Below are positions 29,988-50,492 of a stretch of DNA of 51,343 bases, in pieces (within the stretch, counting starts at the first letter, position 1; each line of letters opens with the position of its first letter). The notes under the pieces are model-generated. The model was given only the letters and a program-made list of their open reading frames with translations, was not told the origin of the DNA and did no database searches. The position numbers and the translations under genes are program-made. Source of the DNA: Bacillota bacterium (lineage in GTDB: Bacteria; Bacillota; UBA5301); contig JACDOJ010000009.1 in NCBI GenBank assembly GCA_017656135.1, positions 1 to 51,343 of the forward strand, given 5' to 3'.

Positions 29988-29991
29988 CCGG

Positions 29992-31236: not shown

Positions 31237-31248
31237 GGGGTGTATTTG

Positions 31249-32505
31249 ATGAAAATATTAGCATTAGCCAGGAAAAACCTGGGACGGCACAGAGGAAGGA
31301 CCATTCTCAGTCTCATAGCTGTTGCTTTAGGGGTTGCGATCATCATATTTACCAAAGGTTACACAGAGGGAATGATCAACGATCTGCTAAATAATCATAT
31401 AAGGCTGATGGCCGGCCACGTCCGGATTATTCACCCGGAATATCAGAAGAAAGAACGCCTACTCTCTCTGACCTTGCCGGTAGAGGGCTATACGGACGGC
31501 GGTTTAGATGAGATGCTGGCCCAGCTGGAAGAGATGCCTGAGACCCGGGTGGTCGCTCCCAGGATCAAATTTGGTGCTCTAGTGCCCAAGGACGAGAAGA
31601 CCGAAGGAGTCCTTGGGGTGGCGGTCAGGCCCCAGGCAGAAGAGGAGCTGGCCCGAATATCACAATACGTCGGGGAAGGCCGGTGGCTGCAAAAAGGCCG
31701 GGAGGTCGTGGTAGGCTCGAAGTTCCTCCAGGAGATGGGCCTTGAGGTCGGCGACGAAATCACCGTGGTTGCCAACTCCGCCTATGGCTCTCTCCGGGCT
31801 AGATCCTATAGGGTAGTGGGAGCCTTTGCCAGCGGCCTCAAGTACCTGGATGAGAACACCATCTACATGACTCTCCCTGAGGGGCAGGACCTTTTGGAAA
31901 TGCCGGGTCAGGCCACTGAGATCTTACTCGGACTCAAGGATGGCGATGCCGGGCCGATTGTTTTTGCTGAAAAGTATAGTAGGTGGCAGAAAGAAAAATA
32001 CGGCCAAGAAGTCTACACAGCTGTACCTTGGCAAAAGAGCAGCCCTCTCATTGAAACCGCTCTGATAGAGAAGGCGGTTTATCATGAAATTTACCTACTG
32101 ATTGCGGTGCTTTCGGCTTTTGTGGTCTTCAACACCATGATGATGATTGTCAACGAACGCCGCCGGGAGATCGGGATGCTCAAAGCTCTGGGTATGACCA
32201 GGCGTCAGATTATCGGCCTCTTCTTAGGAGAGGGGTTATACATCTCGGTTATCGGTGGGCTGATGGGAGTGGCCATCGGGGGAGCCGCTACTTGGTACCT
32301 GTCCCAAAATCCCCTGGATTTCTCGGCGATAATGAAAACTCTCGATAAGAACCTACTCTTTTACCCAAAAATCTACTTCTCCTCCAATGTGGCGGATTTA
32401 TTTTACGCCTTCTTTGTGGGGGTTGTAGTGACATTGATTGCTTCATTTCTACCGGCTAGGCGCGGATCCAAGCTGCCGCCTAGCGAGGCCCTGAGATCTC
32501 TTTAG
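31249..32505 (+). CDS. FtsX-type permease, LolC/E-like (second of two)
   Basis: 418 residues with the same topology as its neighbour: RTILSLIAVALGVAIIIFTKGY as the first helix, then an extracytoplasmic domain, then NTMMMIVNERRREIGMLKALGMTRRQIIGLFLGEGLY and two more helices. ATG 31249 is chosen over GTG 31240 because TAGGGGG (31234-31240) is then correctly spaced. It probably heterodimerises with the previous product. Sequence similarity between the two is restricted to the membrane parts as far as I can see by eye. Confidence 0.88.
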   Translation: MKILALARKNLGRHRGRTILSLIAVALGVAIIIFTKGYTEGMINDLLNNHIRLMAGHVRIIHPEYQKKERLLSLTLPVEGYTDGGLDEMLAQLEEMPETRVVAPRIKFGALVPKDEKTEGVLGVAVRPQAEEELARISQYVGEGRWLQKGREVVVGSKFLQEMGLEVGDEITVVANSAYGSLRARSYRVVGAFASGLKYLDENTIYMTLPEGQDLLEMPGQATEILLGLKDGDAGPIVFAEKYSRWQKEKYGQEVYTAVPWQKSSPLIETALIEKAVYHEIYLLIAVLSAFVVFNTMMMIVNERRREIGMLKALGMTRRQIIGLFLGEGLYISVIGGLMGVAIGGAATWYLSQNPLDFSAIMKTLDKNLLFYPKIYFSSNVADLFYAFFVGVVVTLIASFLPARRGSKLPPSEALRSL

Positions 32506-32519
32506 AAGGAGTGGACGAA

Positions 32520-33281
32520 ATGTTTGTTCGGAAGATAGTCAGGACGGTTTTGGCCGCCTTGCTCCTCGTGGCGGTTTCCCTGCCGGTGCTGGGGGCAGAG
32601 CTCAGCGTCGATGAGATCATGGCGAAACTGGATGAGAATATGTTCATCGAGAAAATCCAGTACAAAGCGACAATGGTGACTATCAATCGGGGCCGGGAAA
32701 TTACCAAGGAAATGACGGTTAAAGCCATCGCAGACACCCATGCTTTGGTGGAGTTCACCAACCGCCGGGACCGGGGTACCAGATACCTAAAGATCGACGA
32801 CGAGCTGTGGATGCGTTTCCCCGACACCGAGGAGATAGTGAAGATCTCCGGCCACATGCTCAGGCAAGGTATGATGGGAAGCGACATCTCCTATGAGGAT
32901 GCCTTGGAGAGCTCCAAACTTCAGGAGAACTACACCGCAAAGCTCTTAGGGTCTGAAACCGTGAACGGCCGGGAATGTTACTTGGTGGAACTGACTGTGA
33001 AACCCGGCAAAGAAGTGGCTTATCCTACCCGAAAGATGTGGGTGGATAAAGAGCACTTTACGGTCTGGAAGGAAGAGATGTACGCCCAAAGCGGAAAGCT
33101 GGTAAAGGAAAGCAAGACCTTGGCGGTGACTGAGATTGACGGCCGGGTACTTCCGACTGAGGTTGTCATGGAGAACAAACTGCGCCGGGGCTCCCAGACT
33201 CGGATGACCTTGTACGATATTGAGCTAGGAGGAGACTTCAGCCAGGAAGACTTCTCCCTGCGGGCCCTTACCCGTCCGTAG
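32520..33281 (+). CDS. LolA-like outer-membrane lipoprotein-sorting protein
   Basis: 253 residues. Signal peptide 1-24 (...LPVLGAE), then the LolA/LppX-like beta-sheet fold: SVDEIMAKLDENMF, TMVTINRGREITKEMTVKA, YLKIDDELWMRFPDTEEIVKI, and the late block YPTRKMWVDKEHFTVWKEEMY followed by TLAVTEIDGRVLPTEVVM. Such proteins carry a lipid or lipoprotein across the periplasm in a half-barrel. ATG 32520 has SD GAAGGAG (32505-32511). Gene order permease-permease-LolA-barrel suggests it receives cargo from the ABC complex. Confidence 0.85.
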   Translation: MFVRKIVRTVLAALLLVAVSLPVLGAELSVDEIMAKLDENMFIEKIQYKATMVTINRGREITKEMTVKAIADTHALVEFTNRRDRGTRYLKIDDELWMRFPDTEEIVKISGHMLRQGMMGSDISYEDALESSKLQENYTAKLLGSETVNGRECYLVELTVKPGKEVAYPTRKMWVDKEHFTVWKEEMYAQSGKLVKESKTLAVTEIDGRVLPTEVVMENKLRRGSQTRMTLYDIELGGDFSQEDFSLRALTRP

Positions 33282-36214: not shown

Positions 36215-39200
36215 GTGAGCAACTTGCAGGATGCCGAACATCTCTTCGAGCACACCATGGCTGAACATCTTGCAGAGCTAGCCCGCTACTGTGAAGTTGA
36301 TATTGTCATCGGTGTCCCATTCTATAACGAAGAAAAAGAAATCGGGCCCGCCATTGAAGCTCTACAATCGGGCCTTGAAAAATACTGTCCTGAATGCCGC
36401 GCTTTAATCGTCTGCGTCGGCTCCGCAGCAGGCCACAGAGCCCTGGAAAAGCTCGCCGAATCCAAAGCAGTGTCCGGCAAGCCCGAGGTCTATACCTTCC
36501 TCTTAGACCATGACGAGCTTCTGGGCAAAGGCTGGGGCGTCAAGGCTCTGCTTAAAGTGGCGGCCGCACTCCATGCCGATCTCGCCCTTTTCGAGGCCGA
36601 TTTCCTGGCTTCTGTCGGTGAGGTGGACAGCTACCAGTGGCTCCGCCTCCTCTTGGACCCCATCAGAATCGACGGCTATGACCTCTCCCTGGGGTGTTTC
36701 GAACGCCACCCTTTCACTGACGGGCTTGCTCTTCACCTGGTCAGCCCGATTATTGCTTCCACCTACGGTTGGCACATCACAGACCCCCTGGGGGATGAGA
36801 TGGCCCTCTCTAATGATCTTGTGAACAGGTTAATCAGCAAGAGTGTAAACTGGTTTGAAGATGCCTACCAGTATGGGGTCGGCATCTGGATTCTGACCAC
36901 GGCTTTGGCCCAGGAGGCCAGGATTTGCGAATCCAGCCTTGGAGCCAAGGCGCCTACGCGCTATAATGGCAAGCGAGAGCTGATGGGGCACCAGATCATC
37001 AGAACCCTTTTCCACCAGGTGAAAGAGCACTTTCCCAAGTGGAGCAAAACCGGCACGGTCTTGAGGTTTCCGGATGCCATTGGAGTTGCCAAGTGTGCAT
37101 CGGTGATCGCTGATAAACCGGATTTTGCCGCGGCTCTGCGCAAGTTCCAAAAAGGGTTCAATGCCTCTACTGCCAACTTACTGAAACGCATCATTCCCTC
37201 TGAGACTTTTGCCAAGTTAAACTTCCTCGCCGAGGCCCCGCGGGAACACTTCCATTTTAATGATTCCCTCTGGGCCGAAGTGGTCTACGACCTGCTTTTG
37301 GGTTCGGCCTTTCACAGTGAGTTGGATGAGGATGATTTGATCAATGCCGCCTTAAGCTTACTCCATGGCCGGAGGGCGCATACTGCCAAGCACCTTGCTG
37401 AAATCGAGCAGCGCCTGGGTACAATATCGGCCGACGAAACCAACCTCCTTTCCTTGGTTATCAGCCAGGAAAGCTCCAGGCAAATCCGGCTCTTTCACCA
37501 AAAGAGAGAAGAGCTCATCAAAGCCTGGCAGGAGCAGGAAGAAAAGATCCAGCCCTTCCTGCCTCAGGTGGCCTTTTGGGAGTTTATTCCCGGGGTGGCC
37601 ATGACCCTACCTCAAGAAGTTAGCTCTTCTAAAGGGAAGACCATCAGCCTCATCCCGATATACGAAGCCCTGCTTAGAGAGTACCGCCAGCGGTTTGCCT
37701 CCTTTGTGGAAGAGAGATTCGGTCTTCCTGTGACCGCTCCTTCCAGCAAGCTGGTGGAGGCGATCACCGGGTTCATGCGCTCTCTGGAGGAGGGGGTAAA
37801 AGAGCACTTTTTAACTGCGAACTTCACTCTTTACGAGGGGACTAAAGCCAACGCAAAAATACTTTTTGATTTCTTCGATCCGGGAGAGATTTATGCCCTC
37901 AAAGATGAGGCCGCTTGGCGCTTCCTGTACGAGAATCCCCCGGCTCACCTCTTGACTAAATACAACTCAAGTTCTGTGGCGGAGCTTCGGGAAAAGATGC
38001 CGCCCCACCACATACTGGCCCTTTCCTTCTGCACTGAGCACCGGGAGTACCAAATGCGGCTCTGGGAGTGGCTGCGCAAGAATGTAAGGCCGGAGGATTT
38101 CGAGAACCGCCCATTAGAGCCCTTGGTCGTCCCCAACACTCTATTCTATGGTCCTAGCGAGATGAGAGAAACCACCAAGCTCTGCCGGTTAGCTGGGACC
38201 TTAGTTCTGACTAACCTCACTAAACACGCCGGGGGCGAATACCGTTCCCTCCGCTACCTCACAGCTGTGGGCAAAAGCATCTTCGAAGCCCTGGCCTTCA
38301 GTGAGATCTGGCGGGGGTTTGCCAAGGAGGGGAGCAAGCAGTTTGCCCGCAAAGTCGCAAATTCCCTGGAAGGCCACTGGGGTAACGCACTTTTCTCGGC
38401 TCATAACATCTTTGAAAGTGGTATTCACAGAAAATTTGCCTCTCAGCTTCGCGAGAGGGCTCTGGCCCTTAAAGCCGCTTCTCAAGACCCAGAGTTCCAA
38501 CGTTTCTGTGCCGACCTGGCCTTGGCGGCGGAAGTCTATCCCTTGGCCATCACCTTGGCAGACGGCCAGTTTATCCCTCTGTCCATCTGGACCTGGGCCA
38601 GCTTCAGCTATAAAGGGGGCAAGGGCGTTCCCGGGCCTCTCTCTCTCCACGTGGAGCGGGACTGGTTCTCCCGGGAGATCTTAGAGCGGACCTATGCCGC
38701 CCTGGAGGAGAACTGGACCATTGACGAACTCATTATAGACCTCATGGGCAGGGGCAGTGAGTCTGCCGACCTAGCTGAATTCATCTTACCGGTCCAGCAG
38801 GACTCCAAAGAGCTTTTCGTGGAAACCTGTGTCCAGCCGGTGTACCCAGAGGCCGGGCAGTTGAAGCGTTTTCAGGGTAATCCCATATTAAGCCCGGTCA
38901 AAGAGCACGACTGGGAATCCACCTATGTGCTTAATAGCGCCGCCATCCGGTTGGGCGGCAAGATTTACCTGTTGTACCGAGCCTTTGGCGACCAAAAGGT
39001 TTCCAGCATTGGGCTGGCGGTAACCAACGACGGTTTTCACATCTCTGAACGCCTGCCGGAGCCGATCTTCGTCCCCGAGACCCAGGAGGAATCTGCGGGA
39101 GTGGAAGACCCGAGGATCGTTCGGATTGGCGACCGGCTCTATATGACTTACACTGCCTATGATGGGGTGGTTCCCCAGATCGCTTTGGCTTCTATCTCCG

Positions 39201-39823
39201 TCGATGATTTTCTGGCCCGCCGCTGGGAGAAGTGGGAACGCTTGGGCCTGGCGTTTCCCAACTTCCCTAATAAAGATGCGGTCATCTTCCCGGAGAAGAT
39301 CAACGGCCGCTATGCTATGTACCACCGGGTGGCTCCCAGTATCTGGCTCTCGTACGCAGACTCCATCCAGTGCCCGTGGCCCAAGACCGGCCATAAGATC
39401 ATCATGGGGCCCCGCTACGGCATGCTCTGGGATGCAATCAAGATCGGCGCCGGCGCTCAGCCCTTAAAAACCCGCCACGGCTGGCTCCTCATCTACCACG
39501 GAGTGGACTACGCGATTCACTACAGCCTGGGGGTTATGCTGGTTTCACTGGATGATCCCAGTAACCTCATTTACCGCTCTCCAAACCCTATTCTGACCCC
39601 GGAAGAGGAGTACGAGAAAGGGGTCAAAGGACAGGTCTGGGTCCCCAATGTCGTTTTCACCTGCGGTGCCGTTCCCGCCAGAGATACAGACCTCTTAGAA
39701 GATGATGATGAGGTGCTGGTCTACTACGGAGCGGCAGACACCTTTATCGGTGTCGCCAAGGCCACGGTGGCCGAGTTAATTCCTGAACCAATCAGAAAAC
39801 AAGAAAAAAGCTGGAAGAAATGA
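36215..39823 (+). CDS. Giant fusion: glycosyltransferase-like domain, unknown middle, GH130 phosphorylase domain
   Basis: 1202 residues, no signal peptide or membrane helix. Residues ~29-290 look like a GT-A transferase: DIVIGVPFYNEEKEIGPAIEAL, an acidic LFEADFLAS in the DxD region (~126), and DPLGDEMALS / NWFEDAYQYGVGIWI as acceptor-side blocks, similar in style to GT2/GT81 mannosyl- or glucosylglycerate synthases. Residues ~300-880 are mostly helical and unrecognised. Residues ~884-1190 are GH130: FQGNPILSP, GVEDPRI with the general-acid Asp (~972), NKDAVIFPEKINGRYAMYHR, YHGVD and GQVWVPNVVF. GH130 enzymes split or phosphorolyse beta-mannosides. The gene precedes a GDP-sugar operon, so a mannose-type substrate is likely. 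GTG 36215 with SD TAGGGGGAA. The fold assignment of the N-terminal domain is less secure than that of GH130. Confidence 0.8.
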   Translation: MSNLQDAEHLFEHTMAEHLAELARYCEVDIVIGVPFYNEEKEIGPAIEALQSGLEKYCPECRALIVCVGSAAGHRALEKLAESKAVSGKPEVYTFLLDHDELLGKGWGVKALLKVAAALHADLALFEADFLASVGEVDSYQWLRLLLDPIRIDGYDLSLGCFERHPFTDGLALHLVSPIIASTYGWHITDPLGDEMALSNDLVNRLISKSVNWFEDAYQYGVGIWILTTALAQEARICESSLGAKAPTRYNGKRELMGHQIIRTLFHQVKEHFPKWSKTGTVLRFPDAIGVAKCASVIADKPDFAAALRKFQKGFNASTANLLKRIIPSETFAKLNFLAEAPREHFHFNDSLWAEVVYDLLLGSAFHSELDEDDLINAALSLLHGRRAHTAKHLAEIEQRLGTISADETNLLSLVISQESSRQIRLFHQKREELIKAWQEQEEKIQPFLPQVAFWEFIPGVAMTLPQEVSSSKGKTISLIPIYEALLREYRQRFASFVEERFGLPVTAPSSKLVEAITGFMRSLEEGVKEHFLTANFTLYEGTKANAKILFDFFDPGEIYALKDEAAWRFLYENPPAHLLTKYNSSSVAELREKMPPHHILALSFCTEHREYQMRLWEWLRKNVRPEDFENRPLEPLVVPNTLFYGPSEMRETTKLCRLAGTLVLTNLTKHAGGEYRSLRYLTAVGKSIFEALAFSEIWRGFAKEGSKQFARKVANSLEGHWGNALFSAHNIFESGIHRKFASQLRERALALKAASQDPEFQRFCADLALAAEVYPLAITLADGQFIPLSIWTWASFSYKGGKGVPGPLSLHVERDWFSREILERTYAALEENWTIDELIIDLMGRGSESADLAEFILPVQQDSKELFVETCVQPVYPEAGQLKRFQGNPILSPVKEHDWESTYVLNSAAIRLGGKIYLLYRAFGDQKVSSIGLAVTNDGFHISERLPEPIFVPETQEESAGVEDPRIVRIGDRLYMTYTAYDGVVPQIALASISVDDFLARRWEKWERLGLAFPNFPNKDAVIFPEKINGRYAMYHRVAPSIWLSYADSIQCPWPKTGHKIIMGPRYGMLWDAIKIGAGAQPLKTRHGWLLIYHGVDYAIHYSLGVMLVSLDDPSNLIYRSPNPILTPEEEYEKGVKGQVWVPNVVFTCGAVPARDTDLLEDDDEVLVYYGAADTFIGVAKATVAELIPEPIRKQEKSWKK

Positions 39824-39866
39824 TTTTAGATCCCCTCTAATTGGCCTTATAACCACTTCCTATTTT

Positions 39867-39904
39867 TTGAATAATTGGCAAACAAAGTGGTATAATGATA
39901 TAAT
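39867..39904 (+). promoter_or_regulatory. Promoter of the sugar-nucleotide operon
   Basis: TTGAAT (39867-39872), an 18-base spacer and TATAAT (39891-39896) preceded by TG (extended -10, TGG at 39888-39890). A second TATAAT lies at 39899-39904. The operon 39954-44860 can thus be transcribed independently of the fusion gene upstream. No clear terminator is visible in 39824-39866. Confidence 0.65.
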
Positions 39905-39953
39905 AAAGGTAATTTTTGGAAATTAGATATATCTAAAGGAGGGATCGTTCGAG

Positions 39954-40988
39954 ATGCGTGTTGGGGCGCTCTTGTTGGCGGGGGGGCTCGGTACGCGCCT
40001 TTTTCCCCTCACCAAGCAGCTGCCTAAACCGATGATTCCGTTACTTGGGAAGCCTCTTTTGGAACACATCATCACCAATCTAGTCGGCCAAGGCGTAGAG
40101 GATATTGTCATCGCCGTCGGCTACCAAGGGGAAGTTATCGAAAGATATTTTGGCGATGGTTCTCGCTTTAACTGCCGGATTCGGTATAGCCGAGAAGATA
40201 AACCCCTTGGTACAGGCGGAGCCATCAGAAAAGGCGGGCTCCTCTTTGATCACACCTTTCTGGTCTTAAACGCAGACATTCTCCAAGACTTCGCTTTGAA
40301 CAAGTTAGTGGCCTTTCACCAAGAGACTGGTGCCTCAACTACCATCGGGTTGATGATGGTCAAAGATCCCCGGAGTTTTGGCCTGGTGGAGCTGGGACCT
40401 TCCGGCAGGGTGCAGCGCTTTGTGGAGAAACCTAAAACCCTGGCCGAAGTCACCAGTCCGTATGTAAATGCAGGCATTTATGTTATGGAACCGGAAGTTT
40501 TAGCATATATTCCTGATAGTAAACAAGTTTCCGTTGAACGGGAGACGTTTCCGGCCCTTTTGGCTGCAGGAGAGCCTGTATATGGTTTCCCCATGTCCGG
40601 TGTCTGGCATGACCTAGGTACCCGGGAAAGATACCTTAAGGTGCATCAAGACCTGCTGCAAACAACAAAACCGGCGGTGCAGTCTGCTCCCGACGCTGTG
40701 GTGCACAAAAAAGCAAAGCTTATACCCCCGGTCTGGATCGGCCCAGGATGCCAGGTTCAGAATGGGGCTGAGGTAGGTCCCTTTGCTTTTTTAGGTGCCG
40801 GTTGCCAGGTTAAGTCCGGGGCTAAGGTTAAAGAGTCCGTACTGTGGGATCAAGTGATCGTGGGGCCCGGGGCATGTGTTATCCAGTCGGTCTTAGGAAA
40901 TACTGTCAGTGTACCGCCGGCAGGGAGGCTTATTGGGCAGTTGGTTTGTCCAGAGAGCCTGGAAGAAGCGATAAGGAGGTCGTTGTAA
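39954..40988 (+). CDS. Sugar-1-phosphate nucleotidyltransferase (mannose-1-phosphate guanylyltransferase-like)
   Basis: 344 residues. It begins with ALLLAGGLGTRLFPLTKQLPKPMIPLLGKPLLEHII, the nucleotide-binding signature, followed by ADILQDF for the metal-binding Asp, FVEKPK, and NAGIYVME. From about residue 245 it has a left-handed beta-helix tail of hexapeptide repeats (PPVWIGPGCQVQNGAEVGPFAFLGAGCQV). This two-domain layout is that of GMPP-type GDP-mannose and some NDP-glucose pyrophosphorylases. The base specificity cannot be read with certainty; the phosphomannomutase-like partner favours GDP-mannose. SD AAAGGAGGG before ATG 39954. Confidence 0.85.
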   Translation: MRVGALLLAGGLGTRLFPLTKQLPKPMIPLLGKPLLEHIITNLVGQGVEDIVIAVGYQGEVIERYFGDGSRFNCRIRYSREDKPLGTGGAIRKGGLLFDHTFLVLNADILQDFALNKLVAFHQETGASTTIGLMMVKDPRSFGLVELGPSGRVQRFVEKPKTLAEVTSPYVNAGIYVMEPEVLAYIPDSKQVSVERETFPALLAAGEPVYGFPMSGVWHDLGTRERYLKVHQDLLQTTKPAVQSAPDAVVHKKAKLIPPVWIGPGCQVQNGAEVGPFAFLGAGCQVKSGAKVKESVLWDQVIVGPGACVIQSVLGNTVSVPPAGRLIGQLVCPESLEEAIRRSL

Positions 40989-43285
40989 TGAAGATCGCAA
41001 TTGTTTCATCTTGGCCCCCCAGACAGTGCGGAATAGCTTCCTTTGCTTCGGACATGCGCTTGGGGTTGAAACAGAACGGGTATTCGAACCTGCCAGTTGT
41101 CGCCGTCTCTCGGGAACCAGGGGAGTACCACTACGGTGATGAGGTGGTCTACGAGATCATCCAGGATGAAGCCGAAACCTACCGGGAAGCAGCCCAGGTT
41201 CTAAACGATCTGGCGGTGGATGCTGTTATTTTGCAGCACGAGTACGGACTTTTCGGCGGCCCAGATGGTGACATGATCTTAGGGCTGCTCTCCAGCCTCA
41301 AGGTGCCGGTGGTCTCCATCCTGCACACGGTCCTTTCCAAACCCTCGGCCGGGCAGTATAAAGTGCTGGGGAGGCTGGCTGAGTACTCCAGCAAGGTGGT
41401 GGTCATCGCCGAACGGGCCAAGAACATCTTAGGACAAGTCTACGGCATACCCCCGCAGAAAACAGTTCATATTCCGCACGGGGTTCCGGAACCGCCGTTG
41501 CCGAAAGCGGTTCAAAAGGTGAAGGAGAGTTTCGGTGGCGGGGGAAAAACCCTGTTGCTGACGTTTGGGCTCCTGAGTCCGGGGAAGGGCCTGGAGCTGG
41601 CGATTAAGGCGGTAGGTGAGATCCGCAGCTCCTGCCCTGATTTACTCTACCTCATCGTTGGGGCCACCCACCCGAATGAGAGGCGCCTGCACGGCGAGGC
41701 CTACCGGGAGGGCCTGCAGAGAATGATAAGGATGATGGGCCTGGAGGAGAATATCCGCCTCATCGACAGGTTCTTGGATGAAGACGAGCTCATGGCCCAC
41801 ATCGCCGCCTGTGACATCTACGTGATTCCCTACCCCAGCCGGGAACAGATCTCCAGCGGCACGCTCTCTTTCGCTCTGGGATTGGGGAAACCCATCATCT
41901 CCACCCCCTTTATTTACGCTGAGGAAATGCTGGGTGATGGCTCAGGGCTCTTGGTTCCCTTCGGAGATGCCGGGCAGATGGGTAAAGCTATGGCCACTTT
42001 GATCAAAGACCGTGGCTTTCGGGCGGAACTGGCTGCCAAGGCCCTTGTCAAGGGTCGGAAGATGCAGTGGAAAGTGGTGGCCCAAAAGTACGCCAAACTG
42101 GCCAAGACGGTGGGCAAGATTCATCCGGTCCACAAAGGGAGAATACCCCCTGCGGTCGGAGAACGCCATTCCGGCAAGAAGGACTTGGTCAAACTGCCCG
42201 CGGTCTCCTACGACCACCTCATACGGATGACAGACGACACCGGTCTGCTCCAGCACGCCTGCGGCTCGATCCCCAACCGGCAGCTGGGTTACACCTCAGA
42301 TGATAATGCCAGGGGGCTTCTGGCCATGGCGCTGGCTCCCAAGGAACAGGAGACTCAGGCTCTGAAATTGGCTGAAAACTACCTGGCTTTCCTGTATTAT
42401 GCCTGGGAGGGGGATGGCTGGTTCCACAACTGCTTCAGCTACGACCGCAGACCTTTGGAAGAGAAACCGTCTGATGACTGTCAGGGCAGGGTGCTATGGG
42501 CTCTGGCAGCTACCGTCAGAGTCTGGAGTGAGCTGCCCCTGGCCAAAGTGGCCTTCAGGATGTTTAGGGAATCCCTGCCGACCTGGACCAGAATGACTTC
42601 GATCCGGGGCTATGCTGGCGTAGTTATGGCCCTGGCGACGCTGCTGCGCTCCACACCCAGCCTGGGGACGGAAGGGTGTTCACAGGACTTATCAGAGGGT
42701 TTGGTTGCTGAATACACGGAAACCCTGGTCAAAGTGGCCGATAAGCTGGCCGCAAAGTATAAGGCGACCGCCAGGAAGAACTGGCTCTGGTACGAGAACA
42801 TCCTAACCTATGACTGTGGATTGATGCCGGCCGCCATGTTTCAGGCCTACGGTGTGGTACCGAAGAAAGAGTACCTGAAGATTGCCGCTGAGAGCCTGCA
42901 CTTTTTGGCCGGCAAGACTGTGGAGGAGGGAATCTTCCGCCCGGTGGGGAATAGAGGATGGTATCCGCGGAACGGCAAAAAGGCTGAGTACGACCAGCAG
43001 CCTTTAGAGGCCTGGGCAATGGCTCTGGCAGCGATTTCCGCCTATGATGTGACCCGGAACCGCCGCTGGCTGGACCTGGCCGATATCGCTGAACGCTGGT
43101 TCTTGGGCCAAAACGACCTGGGGATTTCTCTTTATGATCCCCGGACAGGGGGCTGTGCCGACGGTCTGCATTCGGAAGGGATCAATGAGAACCAGGGGGC
43201 CGAGTCGACTCTGGCCTACATTTTGACCAGATCGCTGCAGGAGGCAGTCCGCGAGAGTACGCTATCGGAGGTGCAGGAAGCTTGA
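40988..43285 (+). CDS. GT4 glycosyltransferase fused to an (alpha/alpha)-barrel glycosidase-like domain
   Basis: 765 residues, cytoplasmic. Residues 1-400 are a GT-B transferase of family GT4: IVSSWPPRQCGIASFASDM, HGVPEPP, LLTFGLLSPGKGLELAIKA, and IPYPSREQISSGTLSFALGLGKPIISTPF for the nucleotide-sugar site. Residues ~420-755 are an all-helical toroid-like domain with paired motifs (YTSDDNARGLLAMAL, FHNCFSYDRRPL, DDCQGRVLWALA, YDQQPLEAWAMALA, NENQGAESTLAYI), as in (alpha/alpha)6 glycosidases and phosphorylases. ATG 40988 overlaps the previous stop, with AAGGAGG at 40974-40980. GT4 plus this type of domain recurs near GH130 genes in other bacteria, to my knowledge without biochemical proof. The likely sugar is mannose. 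Confidence 0.83.
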   Translation: MKIAIVSSWPPRQCGIASFASDMRLGLKQNGYSNLPVVAVSREPGEYHYGDEVVYEIIQDEAETYREAAQVLNDLAVDAVILQHEYGLFGGPDGDMILGLLSSLKVPVVSILHTVLSKPSAGQYKVLGRLAEYSSKVVVIAERAKNILGQVYGIPPQKTVHIPHGVPEPPLPKAVQKVKESFGGGGKTLLLTFGLLSPGKGLELAIKAVGEIRSSCPDLLYLIVGATHPNERRLHGEAYREGLQRMIRMMGLEENIRLIDRFLDEDELMAHIAACDIYVIPYPSREQISSGTLSFALGLGKPIISTPFIYAEEMLGDGSGLLVPFGDAGQMGKAMATLIKDRGFRAELAAKALVKGRKMQWKVVAQKYAKLAKTVGKIHPVHKGRIPPAVGERHSGKKDLVKLPAVSYDHLIRMTDDTGLLQHACGSIPNRQLGYTSDDNARGLLAMALAPKEQETQALKLAENYLAFLYYAWEGDGWFHNCFSYDRRPLEEKPSDDCQGRVLWALAATVRVWSELPLAKVAFRMFRESLPTWTRMTSIRGYAGVVMALATLLRSTPSLGTEGCSQDLSEGLVAEYTETLVKVADKLAAKYKATARKNWLWYENILTYDCGLMPAAMFQAYGVVPKKEYLKIAAESLHFLAGKTVEEGIFRPVGNRGWYPRNGKKAEYDQQPLEAWAMALAAISAYDVTRNRRWLDLADIAERWFLGQNDLGISLYDPRTGGCADGLHSEGINENQGAESTLAYILTRSLQEAVRESTLSEVQEA

Positions 43286-44685
43286 GCAAGCCGGAGTTAA
43301 AACTGCATGTTTTTAAAGAGTATGACATCAGGGGTGAGGCCTACAAGGACTTGACCCCTGATTTTGCGTGCCTTTTGGGCTACGCCTTTGGGAAGATGGT
43401 AAAGGAGGAGAAGGGTTTCAATAAGGCCATCATAGGCCGGGACAACCGGGAGTCTTCCCCGGAGCTGGCCGAGGGGCTTGTCACGGGCTTACGCCGGGCC
43501 GGGGTAGAGGTAGTCGATATCGGCCAGGTGGTGACGCCGGTCTTCTACTGGTCCAGGATCTACTATGATATCAATCCCGGGATCATGGTAACGGCCAGCC
43601 ACAACCCGCCCAAGGACAACGGTTTCAAGATCGCCTTAGGTTTTGCCACTATCTATGGGGAAGATGTGCAGAACCTGCGCCGGCGGATGGAGGCCCTAAT
43701 CGACGAATACGAGAAGGAACCCAGTGAGCTGCCGCCGGTGCGCAAAGAGCGGCCCAATCCAGAGTACATCAAGATGGTTGCGGAGAAAGTGAAGCTGGAT
43801 AGGCCTCTGAAGGTGGCAGTGGACTGCGGCAACGGTACGGCTTCGGACATCGCCGTAGATCTGTATGAGGCCTTGGGCTGTGAGGTTATACCTCTATACT
43901 GTGAGTCAAACCCCTCCTTCCCCAACCACCATCCTGACCCGGTGAGGCCCGAGAACCTGCAGGACCTGATCAAGGTCGTTAAGGAGAACCAGGCTGATGT
44001 GGGTCTCGCCTTTGACGGTGACGGAGACCGGTTGGGTGTGGTTGATGATACCGGAAACATCCTGTGGGGAGACCAGTTGATGGTCTTGTACTGGCGGGAG
44101 ATCCTGCCGAAACACCCGGGAGCAGAGGCGATTGTTGAGGTGAAGTGCTCCAATGCCTTGGTGGATGAGGTGAAGAAGCTGGGGGGAAGACCTTTCTTCT
44201 ACCGGACCGGCCACTCTTACATTAAGGCCAAGCTCAAAGAGATTGGGGCTCCTTTCACTGGGGAGATGAGCGGCCATCTCTTCTTTGCCGATGAGTACTA
44301 TGGTTTTGATGATGCGCTTTACGCAGGGGCGAGGCTATTGCGGATACTGGCCAGGGAGGATAAACCTTTATCTCGACTTCTCGATGATGTGCCTAAGTAC
44401 TACAGTACGCCTGAGGTCAGGGTCCACTGCCGGGAGGAGTCCAAGACCAAGGTGGTTAAGGCTGTACTGGACCATTTCCGGGAGAAGTATGAGGTTATCG
44501 ATGTGGACGGCGCCAGGGTGAACTTTCCCAATGGCGGATGGGGCCTGGTGAGGGCCTCCAACACCCAGCCGGTATTGGTCTTAAGGTGTGAGGCCAAGAC
44601 CAAGGAGGATTTGGGTAAAATCACTGGGGAGATAGAAGAGGTCCTGGAGAAGTTCCCTGAGGTGGGGGAAATCAACTGGAAATAG
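43282..44685 (+). CDS. Phosphomannomutase / phosphoglucomutase
   Basis: 467 residues, usual for the AlgC/ManB branch of alpha-D-phosphohexomutases. The active-site phosphoserine is in TASHNPPKDNGFK, the Mg2+ site in FDGDGDRLGVV, the sugar-recognition loop in GEMSGHLFF and the phosphate site in RASNTQPVLVLR. It interconverts mannose-6-P and mannose-1-P (or the glucose forms), feeding the nucleotidyltransferase of the same operon. TTG 43282 overlaps the preceding stop by 4 bp (TTGA), after SD GGAGGTGCAGGAAG. Confidence 0.92.
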   Translation: MSKPELKLHVFKEYDIRGEAYKDLTPDFACLLGYAFGKMVKEEKGFNKAIIGRDNRESSPELAEGLVTGLRRAGVEVVDIGQVVTPVFYWSRIYYDINPGIMVTASHNPPKDNGFKIALGFATIYGEDVQNLRRRMEALIDEYEKEPSELPPVRKERPNPEYIKMVAEKVKLDRPLKVAVDCGNGTASDIAVDLYEALGCEVIPLYCESNPSFPNHHPDPVRPENLQDLIKVVKENQADVGLAFDGDGDRLGVVDDTGNILWGDQLMVLYWREILPKHPGAEAIVEVKCSNALVDEVKKLGGRPFFYRTGHSYIKAKLKEIGAPFTGEMSGHLFFADEYYGFDDALYAGARLLRILAREDKPLSRLLDDVPKYYSTPEVRVHCREESKTKVVKAVLDHFREKYEVIDVDGARVNFPNGGWGLVRASNTQPVLVLRCEAKTKEDLGKITGEIEEVLEKFPEVGEINWK

Positions 44686-44725
44686 GAAAAGGGCTAAGCA
44701 AATAGTTTCAGGGGGAGAGGAGAGT

Positions 44726-44860
44726 ATGCTGAAAAAGGTTTTGCTCATTATTGCTATTATCGTGCTGATTTTTGTGGTCCAGATTGTGAACACCCATTCA
44801 CCCAGCGGTGAGCACGCAACCAGCGGGCCGGAACAGGAAATAACGGAGGTTCAGCATTAA
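44726..44860 (+). CDS. 44-residue single-span membrane peptide
   Basis: A small gene with a strong SD (GGGGGAGAGGAGAG, 44711-44724) and ATG 44726. The peptide begins MLKKVLLIIAIIVLIFVVQIV, one membrane helix with a positive inside end, followed by a polar, mildly acidic tail HSPSGEHATSGPEQEITEVQH. It lies 40 bases after the phosphohexomutase stop with no terminator between, so is probably co-transcribed. Function unknown; it could tether a cytoplasmic sugar enzyme to the membrane (speculation). Confidence 0.65.
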   Translation: MLKKVLLIIAIIVLIFVVQIVNTHSPSGEHATSGPEQEITEVQH

Positions 44861-44949: not shown

Positions 44950-46074
44950 ATGCAGATATTAGCCCAGGTAAAACTAATAATTGGACTTTGCATTACTCTC
45001 CTTGTTTTGGTGACCATTCCGGTTGCAGCTGAAGAACTATGTAATGTAGAGGTTCTGGTGGACCAAAACGGGCTTAGCCTGCAAGAGCTGAGCTTCCATT
45101 TAAGCGCCGGTGCTTGGCAGCTGACCGCAGGGAAACAGCAAGTTCACTGGGGCCCTGGCAAGCTAGGGAATCTCTTTCTTTCGGAAGAAAGCCCTTTCTG
45201 TGGGTTGGTTGCCAGTAGATCTTGGGAGATTGGTAAGTATTCAATAAGGAGCACCCAGCTTTTCGCTCCTATTGATTCTACGAAACACAAGGTTCTGTTT
45301 GCCCATCGACTGGAGAGCCCATTGACCGACAATCTGACTTTAGGAGTCAATGAAAGTGCCATTGCTAGTGGGGATTTCACTCCATGGTTGTATAATCCAA
45401 TCCCATTTTGGCCCTATTATCTCACTCAGCACTTGGTGAAGAAGGACGATCCTCAACAAGACTGGCTTATCAATGTTAATCTAGGTATTGATACTGTCTA
45501 CAAATGGAGTGCTGATAAAGAAGTTTATGGTGAGCTATTCATCGATGATGCTCAGAGTGACCTACAAGGCAGGACCAGAGTGCCGGATATGTTCGGCATC
45601 ATGTTGGGCTTTCACGATAAGGAGCTTGAGTTTTGGTCAAATACTGCGGCCACTGTAGAGTACGTAGCAATCACCAACTGGGTCTACTCCCACAAAAATT
45701 TGGACAACAACTATGTTTGGGAAGATGAAACTCCCATTGGTCACTGGTTAGGTCCTGACGCTGATGCTATAACTCTTCTCTTGACACACGGGCTGAATCC
45801 AAAAACTGATATATCCTTTAAACTTCAGGCTGAACGGCACGGTGAAGGGTCCATAGACGAGCAGTGGAAACCTGAGTATGGACACGAAAACTGGTTTTTG
45901 TCAGGTGTTGTTGAAAAACGCTATACAGCTGGAATTAGCTTGACTGAAACCTTAACCAAATACTTGCGGGTGAGCTCCAAGCTGGATTGGACCAGAAGAT
46001 ATAACGCAGGTAACGAACTCGGGAAGACGACTGAAGGTTTTGACCTGGACATAGAGGCGAGTCTCTCATTTTAG
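44950..46074 (+). CDS. Wzi-like capsule assembly outer-membrane protein
   Basis: 374 residues. Signal peptide ~1-27 (...IPVAAEE). It contains QLTAGKQQVHWGPGKLGNLFLSE near residues 57-79, the signature of Wzi/Cap-assembly proteins (a W-G-P-G-x-x-x-x-L-x-L block after an RY/K-Q strand), then many strand-length segments and a final DLDIEASLSF ending in Phe. Wzi is an 18-strand barrel that helps attach capsule to the surface in E. coli. The polysaccharide export genes that follow fit this. The ATG has no clear SD, so the start is less certain. Overlaps the convergent LolA-like gene by 9 bp. Confidence 0.8.
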   Translation: MQILAQVKLIIGLCITLLVLVTIPVAAEELCNVEVLVDQNGLSLQELSFHLSAGAWQLTAGKQQVHWGPGKLGNLFLSEESPFCGLVASRSWEIGKYSIRSTQLFAPIDSTKHKVLFAHRLESPLTDNLTLGVNESAIASGDFTPWLYNPIPFWPYYLTQHLVKKDDPQQDWLINVNLGIDTVYKWSADKEVYGELFIDDAQSDLQGRTRVPDMFGIMLGFHDKELEFWSNTAATVEYVAITNWVYSHKNLDNNYVWEDETPIGHWLGPDADAITLLLTHGLNPKTDISFKLQAERHGEGSIDEQWKPEYGHENWFLSGVVEKRYTAGISLTETLTKYLRVSSKLDWTRRYNAGNELGKTTEGFDLDIEASLSF

Positions 46075-46803
46075 GAAATAAGAGTCCGTCAGGCCGATGT
46101 TCACTTGATGTTTGGAAAGCTCCATCTGGAAGTGAAGGTCATCTGTCAAGGCGACTTTGCTAAGCAATTTACCGAACCCGGAAGGGGGTAGGAGGTTAGC
46201 TAAGAGCAATCCACCTTCACCCTTGAGCTCAGTAGGGATCCAAGCATTAGGGGCAGCTTGGATGTATTTGGCCTGCATGACCGTTCGCCCCATTCCCGGG
46301 ACTGACATGTCTGATTTAATGATTAACCAGCTTTTACTGGAAATCCAAAAACGCATATTAAGGTTTTCCTCGCTTTCTTCCTTAGAGGAAACATCTATTA
46401 TGTAAACCTTTTGTCCTTCAAGTTCAGTGGTTCCAACCAATTTCAAGGTATATCTGGAAGAGGCGAACTGCAAGGGGTCGGGAAAGATAAACCGGTATTG
46501 AGGGAGAAATAATATTTCGCCGATTACAGCTTTAACCTGGCTGGGGCGCTTACTATAGATATCTCCTGAGAGGGGTAATAAAGGAATGAAACCAATTCGT
46601 GCAGTCAATTTTACTTTAGCGTGAAAGTCTTTTAAGCCACTTTGAGCGTTCAGCATATTCTGGATTATCTCGGTTGCTGAGTAGTCTAGGTTTTGTTCAG
46701 TTAATGAGTGAGCAAATACCCTTTGATTTAAAACGAGACTTAAAAATAGTATCAGCATCCAGCTCAAGTGGACTTTTTGCTTAGAGCGGGGCAGCTTAAA
46801 CAA
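46066..46803 (-). CDS. LolA-like periplasmic carrier protein
   Basis: 245 residues. A signal peptide (WMLILFLSLVLNQRVFAHS, ~15-33) is followed by the LolA/LppX-like half-barrel: EIIQNMLNAQSGLKDFHAKV, VKLTARIGFIPLLPLSGDIY, RPSQVKAVIGEILFLPQ, then YTLKLVGTTELEGQKVYIID, NMRFWISSKSWLIIKSDM. This pattern is common in DUF-type outer membrane lipoprotein carriers outside Proteobacteria. It sits between a Wzi-like gene and the capsule export genes, so a role in moving a lipid-linked factor for capsule assembly is conceivable. TTG 46803 has GAGG 9 bases upstream; ATG 46758 is a weaker alternative that shortens the signal peptide. Confidence 0.72.
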   Translation of the reverse strand: MFKLPRSKQKVHLSWMLILFLSLVLNQRVFAHSLTEQNLDYSATEIIQNMLNAQSGLKDFHAKVKLTARIGFIPLLPLSGDIYSKRPSQVKAVIGEILFLPQYRFIFPDPLQFASSRYTLKLVGTTELEGQKVYIIDVSSKEESEENLNMRFWISSKSWLIIKSDMSVPGMGRTVMQAKYIQAAPNAWIPTELKGEGGLLLANLLPPSGFGKLLSKVALTDDLHFQMELSKHQVNIGLTDSYFLK

Positions 46804-46852
46804 GGACGTAAACCTCGATTCTTTGGATTTCTTATATCATTCAGTAAAAGCA

Positions 46853-46887
46853 ATGAATTCCCTTGGGCCACGAAGGGTTTAATTCAT
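46853..46887 (+). other. Inverted repeat in the leader of the capsule export operon
   Basis: ATGAATTCCCTT (46853-46864) can pair with AAGGG-TTT-AATTCAT (46873-46887) with a three-base bulge. It lies 55 bases before the SLBB gene start in the 138-base space between divergent genes. No T-run follows. It could be an operator or a leader RNA structure. Confidence 0.4.
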
Positions 46888-46941
46888 GGAAAAACGAACA
46901 ATATGTAGGAAAATGTAGAATGCCAGGTGGAGGGACATTAG

Positions 46942-48327
46942 TTGAAACGGCTTGCTGTTTTTTTTCTGTTTTCAGCTCTACTGTTTTCTTTGGCAACAAT
47001 CCCATTAGCTGCCCAAGAGAACAACCAGGATTACCGGTTAGGGCCGGGAGATGTCCTTTAAATTTCTGTCTGGGGTCACGAAGATTTGGCCCAGATGGTT
47101 GAAGTCCGACCGGATGGCAAGATTAGTTTTCCTCTCATAGATGATCTCATGGTGGACAACCTGACCATACCACAGGTCAAAGAAGCGTTAACAAAGCAGC
47201 TGGCCCAGTATGTCCGCGACCCTAAGGTAACAGTAGCGGTTAAAAAGTTTCGCACCATAACTGTACAGGTATCGGGAGAGGTCAGGAACCCTGGCCTCTA
47301 CCTGCTACAGCCAGACAGCAGTATCTCAGATGCTATTGCGGCAGCTGGTGGGCTCACGCCTGACGCTGATGGGACAAGGATCAAGTTTGTTCCTAAATCG
47401 GGAGGGGTTTCTCTCGTAAACCTGGACAGTGTTGCCGATACGCTAGGTGAGAAGAGACTACAAAACGGCGACCAGATTATTGTCCCTGAGGTACCAAAGG
47501 TCATGGTGATGGGAGAAGTTCGGTCTCCCGGAATGTATCCTTTAAAACCGGGAAGTAGAGTTTCTGATGCTATTGCCACAGCAGGTGGGCTCACTGGGAA
47601 TGGGGATGTCACAAGTGTCAGAGTGGTTTTCTCTCAAGGTGGCACTGGATCTTTCAATCTGCGAGACTTCTTCCTGAATGGAGATCAAACAAATAACCCA
47701 ATTATCCGCAATGGGGATCAAATCATTGTCCCAGCATTACCCACAGTGACTGTTTTAGGAGAGGTGAATAGGCCAGGTTTAGTGCAGGTAGAGGCTGGAA
47801 GCACTATCAGTGATATTCTCGCTCAGTTGGGGGGAACTACTCCTGATGCAAATCTTCAGCGGGTTGAGCTGACCATCTACCAAACTGCGGAGGCAGCTCC
47901 CATCACCCAAGTCTTTGATCTCACCAAAGCCGATGGCAACAGGCCGATTAGTGTTCCCAGGTCAGCCAGTGTGGTTATTACTGTGCCAAAGATCCAGTGG
48001 CAAGTTACAGTTTTGGGAGAAGTTCAGCGGCCGGGCACCTACCCGGTGAGCGAAAGTTCCAGGCTGCTAGAGGTCATCGGTAAAGCCGGCGGGCCAACCG
48101 ACCGGGCTCGCTTAGACGGTGTGCGGGTTTACAGGGGTGGTGATTTTGCCGATCCAGAGTCTGTTGTCGTGGGCCGGGAACATCTGCTTTTCGAGGGCGA
48201 TTCCAAAGAGAACCCGCAGGTGAAACCTGGTGATGTTATCTTTGTTCCAGAGACAAAGAGAATCGACTGGGATAAGGTCATTAAGTTACTGACAGGGCTC
48301 AAACTTACCAAAGATTTGTTGGAGTAA
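46942..48327 (+). pseudogene. Wza-like polysaccharide export protein (SLBB repeats) interrupted by one in-frame TAA
   Basis: TTG 46942 with SD AGGTGGAGGGA starts LKRLAVFFLFSALLFSLA, a signal peptide, then QDYRLGPGDVL, the Poly_export start. Codon 40 is TAA (47059-47061), after which the same frame continues perfectly with ISVWGHEDLAQMVEVRPDGKISFPLIDDL. Four SLBB repeats follow (starting VSGEVRNPGLY, VMGEVRSPGMY, VLGEVNRPGLV, VLGEVQRPGTY). The family usually has Lys or Glu at the stop position (GDVLKISVWG), so one AAA or GAA to TAA change explains it. No good restart exists: TTG 47086 and ATG 47095 lack a signal peptide and SD. An intact protein would form the periplasmic or outer-membrane polysaccharide channel. 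Readthrough or a sequencing error would also fit. Confidence 0.85.
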
Positions 48328-48345
48328 GGCGGCAGGAGGACCCAA

Positions 48346-49749
48346 ATGGAACAGGAAATTGAACTCAGAGAGCTGTTTGAAATACTCGCCAAGCGGAAGA
48401 CGTTAATAATTTTGCTCGTTATTGGAGCGGTGGTTGCGAGCTTTATTACTTCGCAATTCATGACCCCTATTTATGAAACCAGTACAACCATTATTGTGGA
48501 GAAACCCTCCTCACTGGAGAACCCTTTTCAGCAAATGCTGAGCATGGACCAGCCTCAGGTGGCCGATTTCGCGGAAATCCTGAGGAGTAGAAGTTTGCTC
48601 TACACAGTTGCCAAGAAACTGGATCTGGTGGAAGACGAAAATTCCCAGAAGTTAAAAGAGCTGGCAGAAGCGGTTTCTGTCCAATCGGTTGGGCAGACCA
48701 ACTTGATTCGAATTACCGTGGAGTCGCCGAAGCCGGAGGTGGCCAGGGATTTAGCCAATGGTCTGGCTCAGGAGTTCATAACACAAAATGAGCTGTTGAA
48801 CAGAACAGAGGCTCGCGGGGCCAAAGAGTTCATTGAGGAGCAGCTGAAGATAGTTAGCGAGGACTTGGCACAAGCTGAGGAAGCTCTGCGGAATTTCCAG
48901 ATCGAAAACCAGATTTTTGCACCTGAGCAAGAGGTAGAGGCCACCTTAAACCAGCTCACTAAACTCGAGACCATGCAGGCTGAGACCTTGGTTTCTTTAA
49001 GTGAGTTGGAGAGCAGGCAGAGGCAGGTTAATGCACAGTTGGAAACGGTGGAGGAGAAAGTAATATCCTCTACGACTATTGCCAGAAATCCGCTCATCCA
49101 GGCACTGAAGACACAACTGAACAATTTGGAGATCCAATTGGCAGGTGCCTTGGAGAAATACACTGACGAGCACCCCACAGTTGTCTCTCTGCGGGCAGAG
49201 ATAGAGGAAATTAAAGCCCGCATGAAACAAGAGGCAGCAAAGGTAGTAACTGCTGAAACAGAGACGCTAAACCCGATGTATCAGGCGCTTTATCAGAAGG
49301 CAAGTGAACTGCAGGTCGAAGAACTGGCACTGCAGGTGCGTAATGAAACCCTAGCTAAACTAATTGCCGAGCAAGAGCAAGAGTTGGTTTCCCTCCCTGA
49401 TAAGCAGCTGCAGCTAACCAGACTGATGCGTAACGCCAAGGTCACCGAAGAAATTTATGTTATGCTCAAGAAAAAGTATGAGGAAGTCAAAATCACCGAG
49501 GCTATGAAGACTGCCAATGTCCGGGTGGTCGATGAAGCATTGTCTCCAACCGCCCCCATCCGTCCTAAAGTAAAGCTAAATGTCTTAATCGCAGCCTTTT
49601 TGGCACTTTTCGTGGGGGTCGGTCTAGCCTTTGCTATAGAGTTCCTTGACACTACGATAAAAACCCCGGAAGAGGTGGAGGAGCTTCTGGGACTCCCAGT
49701 ATTAGGCCAAATTCCTTCCTATTTGCCAGAACACTTGCCTGATAAATAG
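48346..49749 (+). CDS. Chain-length determinant / capsule co-polymerase (Wzz, GNVR domain)
   Basis: 467 residues. First membrane helix LIILLVIGAVVASFITSQF (~24-42), then the Wzz domain start MTPIYETSTTIIVEKPSS, and a long periplasmic coiled-coil (~150-400). The final membrane helix lies in PTAPIRPKVKLNVLIAAFLALFVGVGLAFAIEF, with the proline-rich pre-helix motif typical of polysaccharide co-polymerases. The tail KTPEEVEELLGLPVLGQIP fits a cytoplasmic contact with the BY-kinase encoded next. It sets polymer length in Wzy-type assembly. ATG 48346 with SD GCAGGAGG. Confidence 0.9.
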   Translation: MEQEIELRELFEILAKRKTLIILLVIGAVVASFITSQFMTPIYETSTTIIVEKPSSLENPFQQMLSMDQPQVADFAEILRSRSLLYTVAKKLDLVEDENSQKLKELAEAVSVQSVGQTNLIRITVESPKPEVARDLANGLAQEFITQNELLNRTEARGAKEFIEEQLKIVSEDLAQAEEALRNFQIENQIFAPEQEVEATLNQLTKLETMQAETLVSLSELESRQRQVNAQLETVEEKVISSTTIARNPLIQALKTQLNNLEIQLAGALEKYTDEHPTVVSLRAEIEEIKARMKQEAAKVVTAETETLNPMYQALYQKASELQVEELALQVRNETLAKLIAEQEQELVSLPDKQLQLTRLMRNAKVTEEIYVMLKKKYEEVKITEAMKTANVRVVDEALSPTAPIRPKVKLNVLIAAFLALFVGVGLAFAIEFLDTTIKTPEEVEELLGLPVLGQIPSYLPEHLPDK

Positions 49750-49771
49750 TATCGCAGGAGAGGGTGAAGTA

Positions 49772-50488
49772 ATGAGCAGGAGCAAGAGTAAGAGTAAGAT
49801 TGAACGGAAGTTGCTGATAAAAACTCTAAGGTCAAATGCGCCTGCTGTGGAGGCGTTCAGGAGTCTGAGGACAAATATCCAGTTCACTAACATAGCTGCA
49901 TCGACTAAGGTGATAGCCCTGACCAGTGCTGGGCCGAGCGAAGGGAAATCAAGTGTGGCCGGGAACCTGGCTTCGGTAATGGCACTGGCCGGTTCCAAGT
50001 GTATCTTGGTAGATGCTGATCTGCGTAAACCGGTGCAGGCTAAACAGTTCGGTGTAAGCGGCAGGGTTGGGTTGACTAATGTATTAATGGGGTCTTTAAG
50101 CGTGGAGGACGCACTGGTTTCTACGGAAATCGAGGGTTTACGTCTTCTCCCTAGTGGGCCTATTCCTCCCAATCCTGCAGAGCTTTTAGGGAGCGCTTTG
50201 ATGAAGTCGACTCTGGAGGAGTTACGAGAAAGAGCCGATATTGTCATTGTAGATACCCCACCGTTGCTGCCGGTGACAGATGCAGCTGTTTTGGCCTCAA
50301 TTGTGGACGGCACCATCCTAGTGGTTAAGTCCGGTGAAACCCATAAACAGGCCGTAATACGGGCCAAGCAATCCTTGGAATCGGTGAACGCTAGAATCCT
50401 CGGGGTAGTGCTTAACGGAGTAATTCCAAAAACAGGTTATTACCAACACTACTACTATCACTATGCCGAGTCCAACAAAGGAGCATGA
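49772..50488 (+). CDS. Bacterial tyrosine kinase (CpsD/CapB/YwqD type)
   Basis: 238 residues. Walker A SAGPSEGKSS (~49-58), Walker A' ILVDADLRKP (~80-89) and Walker B VIVDTPP (~165-171), the BY-kinase set. The C-terminus carries the autophosphorylated tyrosine cluster GYYQHYYYHY. It works with the transmembrane Wzz-like activator upstream, cycling phosphorylation to control capsule polymerisation. As in Gram-positives, activator and kinase are separate proteins; in Proteobacteria they are usually fused (Wzc). SD CAGGAGAGGG precedes ATG 49772. Confidence 0.93.
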   Translation: MSRSKSKSKIERKLLIKTLRSNAPAVEAFRSLRTNIQFTNIAASTKVIALTSAGPSEGKSSVAGNLASVMALAGSKCILVDADLRKPVQAKQFGVSGRVGLTNVLMGSLSVEDALVSTEIEGLRLLPSGPIPPNPAELLGSALMKSTLEELRERADIVIVDTPPLLPVTDAAVLASIVDGTILVVKSGETHKQAVIRAKQSLESVNARILGVVLNGVIPKTGYYQHYYYHYAESNKGA

Positions 50489-50492
50489 GTCT

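Follow-up and report, generated by a model that had tools for sequence, protein, structure and literature searches.

A three-domain GH130 fusion protein next to GDP-mannose genes: a candidate cytoplasmic module for beta-1,2-mannoside turnover in anaerobes

What could a bacterium gain from joining a transferase-like domain, an unrecognised domain and a GH130 domain in one chain, next to genes for sugar-nucleotide metabolism? The question is raised by positions 36,215 to 44,860 of contig JACDOJ010000009.1 (assembly GCA_017656135.1, a Bacillota bacterium of the GTDB lineage UBA5301), which was analysed over its whole 51,343 nucleotides (the window). The initial annotation had proposed a mannogen-like system that makes and recycles an intracellular mannan. 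We see about an even chance that the locus serves to turn over a beta-1,2-linked mannoside, probably an oligomannan, in the cytoplasm. The annotated genes are all present at their positions, and the nucleotidyltransferase, the GT4 with an (alpha/alpha) domain, the phosphohexomutase and the small membrane peptide that follow the fusion gene were correctly identified. To judge residue conservation, 75 complete or nearly complete relatives of the fusion were aligned, and counts out of 75 refer to this alignment. The features are as follows.

36215..39823, + strand: three-domain fusion gene (GT78-like / unrecognised / GH130), 1202 amino acids; open reading frame with Pfam GH130, a single frame in the 75 aligned relatives
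36215..37504, + strand: GT-A domain with helical tail, residues 1-~430, fold like mannosylglycerate synthase (GT78), from AlphaFold2 and Foldseek
36593..36601, + strand: E127-A-D129, counterpart of DXD, its second Asp present in 60/75
37532..38854, + strand: unrecognised domain, residues ~440-880, mainly helical with short strands; confident model, pLDDT (predicted local distance difference test) 87
38873..39781, + strand: GH130 domain, residues 887-1189; PF04041 189 bits (cut-off 26), E 1.2e-55; PDB 7fip, E 1.7e-64
39107..39109, + strand: D965 of V-E-D-P-R, the GH130 catalytic Asp; 75/75, aligned with 7fip and 9fj8
39272..39274, + strand: K1020 of N-K-D; 75/75, Lys aligned in 7fip and 9fj8
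39323..39328, + strand: H1037-R1038, basic pair common to the solved phosphorylases 7fip and 9fj8; 75/75
39875..39904, + strand: promoter-like site TTGGCA-18-TATAAT with TG, between the fusion and guanylyltransferase genes; 11/12 match
39954..40988, + strand: nucleotidyltransferase like mannose-1-phosphate guanylyltransferase, 344 amino acids; best NCBIfam NF052502
40988..43285, + strand: GT4 (residues 1-~375) fused to an alpha/alpha domain (~400-765), 765 amino acids from the ATG at 40988; PF13692/PF00534
43282..44685, + strand: phosphomannomutase/phosphoglucomutase, 467 amino acids; PF02878-80, NF046027 PgmG
44726..44860, + strand: membrane peptide, 44 amino acids; open reading frame

The C-terminal part of the fusion is a GH130 domain: the family match lies far above its cut-off, and the catalytic motif E964-D965-P966-R967 is present. 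Its closest solved relatives in a profile search are beta-1,2-mannobiose and 1,2-beta-oligomannan phosphorylases. Phylogenetic placement, which the initial annotation had suggested as a check, puts the fused GH130 domains in one clade (99/99) that is sister to the beta-1,2-mannoside phosphorylases Teth514_1788/1789 (99/97) but separate from them. Lys199 of BT3780 is described as the determinant of beta-1,2 specificity, and its counterpart is kept in Teth514_1788/1789 (PMC4599007). Judged by motif and spacing, K1020 would be the equivalent of this lysine; the N-K-D motif is also found in Lin0857 and Uhgb_MS. A beta-1,2 linkage is likely. The proposed likeness to the GT108 enzymes of Leishmania did not hold: 6Q50 is missing from the profile matches up to E 10, while GH130 entries reach 8e-74, and we reject GT108 membership on sequence. 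What the locus may share with mannogen turnover in Leishmania is the proposed beta-1,2-mannan, a related five-bladed propeller family and an economy of mannose-1-phosphate and GDP-mannose. In contrast to GT108, the window protein is a prokaryotic three-domain fusion that is GH130 by sequence.

Mannose was already proposed as the sugar in the initial annotation, and this is borne out by the guanylyltransferase and the phosphomannomutase here and by ManC and mannose-6-phosphate isomerase neighbours in other genomes. The genes that recur around the fusion encode GT4, the alpha/alpha domain (fused to GT4 or as its own gene), phosphomannomutase, ManC-type guanylyltransferase, a mannose-6-phosphate isomerase cupin and a second GT4. 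The nearest PDB structures to the GT4 part are PimA/PimB, which are GDP-mannose alpha-mannosyltransferases, and the alpha/alpha domain finds the uncharacterised 7tem (profile match, E 1.2e-23) along with weak GH76 and epimerase matches. All four enzymes are devoid of an evident export signal, as had been claimed, and of an evident membrane span; their highest 19-residue Kyte-Doolittle means are 0.99-1.72. The use of mannose and GDP-mannose and a cytoplasmic phosphorolysis of beta-mannosides are well supported.

The association between GH130 and the alpha/alpha domain is also seen at the genome level. In a set of 300 genomes from the phylum, the alpha/alpha domain occurs in 63 of the 107 that have GH130 and in 1 of the 193 that do not (Fisher p 2e-34), and it is present in 32 of the 37 genomes that carry the fusion. 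Operons of the order standalone GH130 - guanylyltransferase - GT4 - alpha/alpha - mutase exist in other families, complete at locus L139 and partial at L129, L137, L138 and L140. Their GH130 proteins form another clade in the tree, L140 excepted. L140, from a close relative of Thermoanaerobacter, encodes what is almost a copy of the characterised 1,2-beta-oligomannan phosphorylase, and its order GH130 - guanylyltransferase - GT4 - alpha/alpha agrees with the published Teth514_1788-1785, the last gene of which is annotated merely as 'hypothetical protein' (PMC4264767). The Thermoanaerobacter cluster Teth514_1785-1796 resembles the window locus in having a sister-clade GH130, a mannose-1-phosphate guanylyltransferase, a GT4 and then a protein that is the alpha/alpha domain by gene order. 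The window locus has this complete set of GH130, guanylyltransferase, GT4 and alpha/alpha domain. The two differ in that the GH130 is separate in Thermoanaerobacter and the cluster includes ATP-binding cassette (ABC) transporter and GH5 genes, whereas here GH130 is fused to the GT78-like and unrecognised domains and positions 36215-44860, including the guanylyltransferase-GT4-mutase operon, hold no ABC transporter or GH5 gene. Standalone GH130 clusters (L129, L134, L137, L138, L139, L140) were observed in several Bacillota families, with a varied gene order in L134; L140 apart, the GH130 of all of them falls in that other clade, and a co-occurring Pelotomaculum copy (L085) lacks the N-K-D lysine.

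In the mechanism that we favour, mutase and guanylyltransferase would interconvert mannose-6-phosphate, mannose-1-phosphate and GDP-mannose, and the GH130 domain of the fusion would reversibly phosphorolyse a beta-1,2-mannoside. Since phosphorolysis yields mannose-1-phosphate, the sugar would be returned without ATP cost. Most of the building of the glycan might fall to the GT4-alpha/alpha protein next door, with GH130 perhaps contributing by acting in reverse, and the 440-residue middle domain may hold or process the glycan. From the genes we infer the product, its linkage, which way the flux runs and what the middle and alpha/alpha domains do. A mannogen-like reserve is plausible.

Can the fusion itself both make and break the glycan? 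The predicted structure bears out the expectation of an N-terminal transferase fold. AlphaFold2 modelled residues 1-885 with a pLDDT of 87, and Foldseek matches residues 1-~430 to mannosylglycerate synthase (MGS; 2y4j/2bo7) with E 5e-12 and a template modelling score (target) of 0.77 over 421 columns. Glucosyl-3-phosphoglycerate synthase (GpgS) is the runner-up. The GT2 Pfam family PF00535 is matched by 41 of the 75 homologues; a direct profile match of residues 1-~430 to GT78 was not obtained, the sequence similarity being too low. In MGS and GpgS the metal is held by the second Asp of the DXD motif and a His (PMC2581804). The window copy keeps E-A-D, but has a Pro at the position of the metal His (His217 equivalent). 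Across the fusions the first Asp of the DXD motif is usually Glu, and a complete acid-x-Asp plus His is found in 13/75. Compared with the GT78 enzyme of Rhodothermus marinus (2BO4), the predicted fold including its helical tail is alike, whereas the metal His is absent, EAD stands for DXD and two further domains are fused. In the window copy, the GT78-like domain probably transfers sugar weakly or not at all and is still of use for binding or as a scaffold. Synthesis and breakdown in one polypeptide, as initially proposed, hence probably fails for this copy, although it may hold for the intact ones. Standalone GT78/GpgS-like proteins with an intact DSD were also seen in other genomes of the phylum (L147:1413-2699, L150:1381-2694, also L148 and L149); the metal His is present in those checked (L147, L149 and L150), and in L147 and L150 the next gene encodes a sugar-binding protein of an ABC transporter.

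The state of this site varies with the presence of the GT4-alpha/alpha partner in the locus. Only 1 of 13 copies with an intact GT78 site has the partner, against 36 of 57 eroded ones; with flanks of at least 5 kilobases the counts are 1/6 and 22/27 (p 0.005), numbers that are inflated by shared ancestry. Close relatives within Chloroflexota differ in the same way: L027, L030 and L040 are eroded and have the partner, L021, L028 and L029 are intact and lack it. Since intact sites rarely have the partner in the locus and eroded ones often do, these data suggest that the reaction of the GT78 domain passed to the GT4-alpha/alpha protein. For some eroded copies, no partner gene lies in the vicinity.

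The initial annotation had counted about 580 unrecognised residues between the two ends of the protein. About 130 of these belong to the MGS-like fold as its tail, so that an entirely novel linker is rejected; about 440 are truly unrecognised. This middle domain belongs to no Pfam family, and its model gave no fold match in the PDB or among viral structures at E<=0.001, predicted cellular structures being outside the search. Most of the invariant residues outside GH130 are located here (E456, P459, G673, G674, W792, W794, S796, S798, G802, P806 and E814). Within the sample, the domain occurs only in fusion frames or truncated pieces of them.

The fusion is widespread, usually in genomes that encode a mannosyltransferase partner as well. 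At least 164 related loci are present in the GTDB genome set; most are from anaerobic Bacillota, Chloroflexota and Desulfobacterota, and some are from archaea. The best 80 of these were read, and our statements on neighbours rest on these some 80 loci. They span Bacillota, Chloroflexota, Desulfobacterota/Myxococcota, Krumholzibacteria, Sumerlaeota and archaea, by labels of metagenome-assembled genomes that may contain errors. The three domains keep a constant order in one frame, and this entire frame recurs across many phyla at 27-63% identity, which exceeds chance; for residues 1-880, matches in the same range of 27-63% were found in 7 of 60 relatives. Across the 300 genomes of the phylum, all GH130 matches with 59% identity or more are part of a long fused frame (mostly ~1,170-1,275 codons), and the next matches (<=52%) are standalone. 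A plasmid search returned standalone GH130 relatives only. Thermophiles and marine anaerobes are among the carriers, and cultured ones are Thermosediminibacter, Fervidicola, Tepidanaerobacter and Anoxynatronum. In a Pelotomaculum genome (L085:8222-17837) two fusion copies lie within 10 kilobases, together with genes for GT4-alpha/alpha, for one more GT4 and for a GH130 outside the fusions that lacks the N-K-D lysine. We found no study of the fusion protein in the literature searched.

The five genes had been taken for one operon, and this holds in part. The guanylyltransferase, GT4 and mutase genes (39954-44685) overlap by 1 and 4 bases and look like a tight operon. The fusion gene is set apart by a gap of 130 base pairs that contains the near-consensus promoter-like site with its extended TG; over the gap region as a whole, 8 such sites were found against 7.5 expected in shuffles, which is no enrichment. 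In the sister genus, the fusion and GT4-mutase genes are on separate contigs and no guanylyltransferase gene follows the fusion gene. Because of the promoter-like site and the different linkage in the sister genus, a single five-gene operon is weakened, and the fusion is probably its own transcription unit, functionally associated with the GT4-mutase operon. A short peptide similar to the 44-residue one also follows the mutase in the sister genus, and no significant match to it was found outside the window and this genus.

Several observations weigh against a beta-1,2-mannoside turnover module. GT4 enzymes are retaining and would therefore make alpha bonds, which GH130 does not cleave; the beta bond has no assigned maker. 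Guanylyltransferase (266 bits to NF052502, cut-off 440), mutase (470.7 bits to PgmG, cut-off 600) and GH130 (262.8 bits to NF052550, cut-off 450) all score below the NCBIfam equivalog cut-offs. The alpha/alpha domain is missing from 5 of the 37 fusion genomes, and the fusion gene lies outside the GT4-mutase operon and is unlinked from it in the sister genus. Alternatively, the GT4-alpha/alpha pair might make and cut an alpha-mannan, with GH130 acting on a beta-mannosyl cap. The mycobacterial methylmannose polysaccharide system pairs ManT, a GDP-mannose GT4, with the alpha/alpha6 endomannosidase MmpH (PMC9883506), and it shares with the window locus this combination and the idea of a recycled intracellular mannan; conserved acidic residues and the weak GH76 similarity of the alpha/alpha domain point the same way. 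But the likeness is limited to fold and neighbours, the best match is 7tem and not MmpH, the window locus has a GH130, and no methyltransferase is seen here or recurs elsewhere. We regard this as improbable. A small mannosyl solute, such as a mannosylglycerate-type osmolyte with a beta-mannosyl extension trimmed by GH130 and no reserve polymer, is the least unlikely of the alternatives, yet still unlikely. The N-terminal fold is nearest to two compatible-solute enzymes, MGS and GpgS, and thermophilic and marine carriers would suit an osmolyte; the metal site is eroded in the window copy, however, no glycerate-specific gene recurs beside the fusion in the loci read, and the nearest characterised GH130 proteins act on beta-1,2-mannan oligomers. 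The literature searched contained nothing on GH130 with mannosylglucosylglycerate, and nothing on mannosyl-di-myo-inositol.

Salvage has been proposed for Teth514_1788/1789 (PMC4264767), and GH130 might likewise only degrade scavenged beta-1,2-mannosides, its product feeding GDP-mannose for other glycans. At two related loci (L145:230-7999 and L146:5313-13001), a tandem Teth514-like GH130 pair is accompanied by genes for a GH5/42-like protein, for an ABC sugar transporter and probably for a LacI-type regulator, and these operons likely import and phosphorolyse beta-1,2-mannosides. The fused clade is distinct from such transporter-linked pairs, though; the fusion locus has no transporter or mannanase, none recurs near fusions save a GH5/42-like gene in 5 loci, and pure salvage would not lead one to expect a GT78-like domain in the chain, which makes this role quite unlikely. 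We think equally little of the case that the genes are part of the neighbouring capsule or exopolysaccharide locus and that their products feed or trim a mannose-containing glycan for export. Genes for Wzi-like, SLBB/Wza, Wzz, CpsD-like ATPase and CpsB/CapC proteins do lie directly downstream on the same strand (44950-51236), and an exopolysaccharide role is possible in the window organism. Homologues do not support it: capsule-export genes are not recurrent neighbours in the homologous loci, the linkage differs in the sister genus, and in archaea and many phyla the fusion gene has unrelated genes around it. Homologues are not generally tied to secreted glycans, no recurrent Wza/Wzx/Wzy neighbours being found in the loci read. 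Elsewhere in the window, a MacB/FtsX-type ABC transporter (ATPase and two permeases) lies with a LolA-like outer-membrane lipoprotein sorting protein at 29304-33281; the capsule-export locus and LolA-like proteins suggest a cell with an outer membrane, though relatives are labelled Bacillota.

Returning to beta-1,2-mannoside turnover as the preferred reading, a reserve role can be viewed against glycogen. A strong full-length-type GlgA match is present in 8 of the 37 fusion genomes and in 153 of the 263 others, a difference that is only suggestive as families are clumped, and the window's genome, which has a single GH130 gene, has no such match. The scarcity of GlgA fits a reserve role but does not show it. 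One may go further and imagine that intact-site fusions (Dehalococcoidia, Methanophagales and some others) are single-chain mannan synthases and phosphorylases with a new carbohydrate-active fold in the middle, that the GT78 site decayed where GT4-alpha/alpha was acquired because this partner took over, and that together they provide a widespread but so far unnoticed beta-1,2-mannan reserve of anaerobes, partly replacing glycogen; we consider this unlikely.

The locus elaborates the known GH130/guanylyltransferase/GT4 module into a three-domain protein with an unrecognised centre. In the literature searched, bacterial mannogen-like reserves have not been described, and the source of the beta-1,2-oligomannan used by the Thermoanaerobacter phosphorylases has not been identified (PMC4264767). 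The family provides specific genes, a clade anchored by biochemistry, carriers in culture and a domain without a known-fold match. Since an intact GT78 site goes with the absence of the GT4 partner, the division of labour can be tested directly. The family hints that anaerobes contain a mannose-based compound that has been overlooked. A beta-1,2-mannan, if found, would extend the storage or stress compounds of syntrophic, dehalogenating and methane-oxidising microbes.

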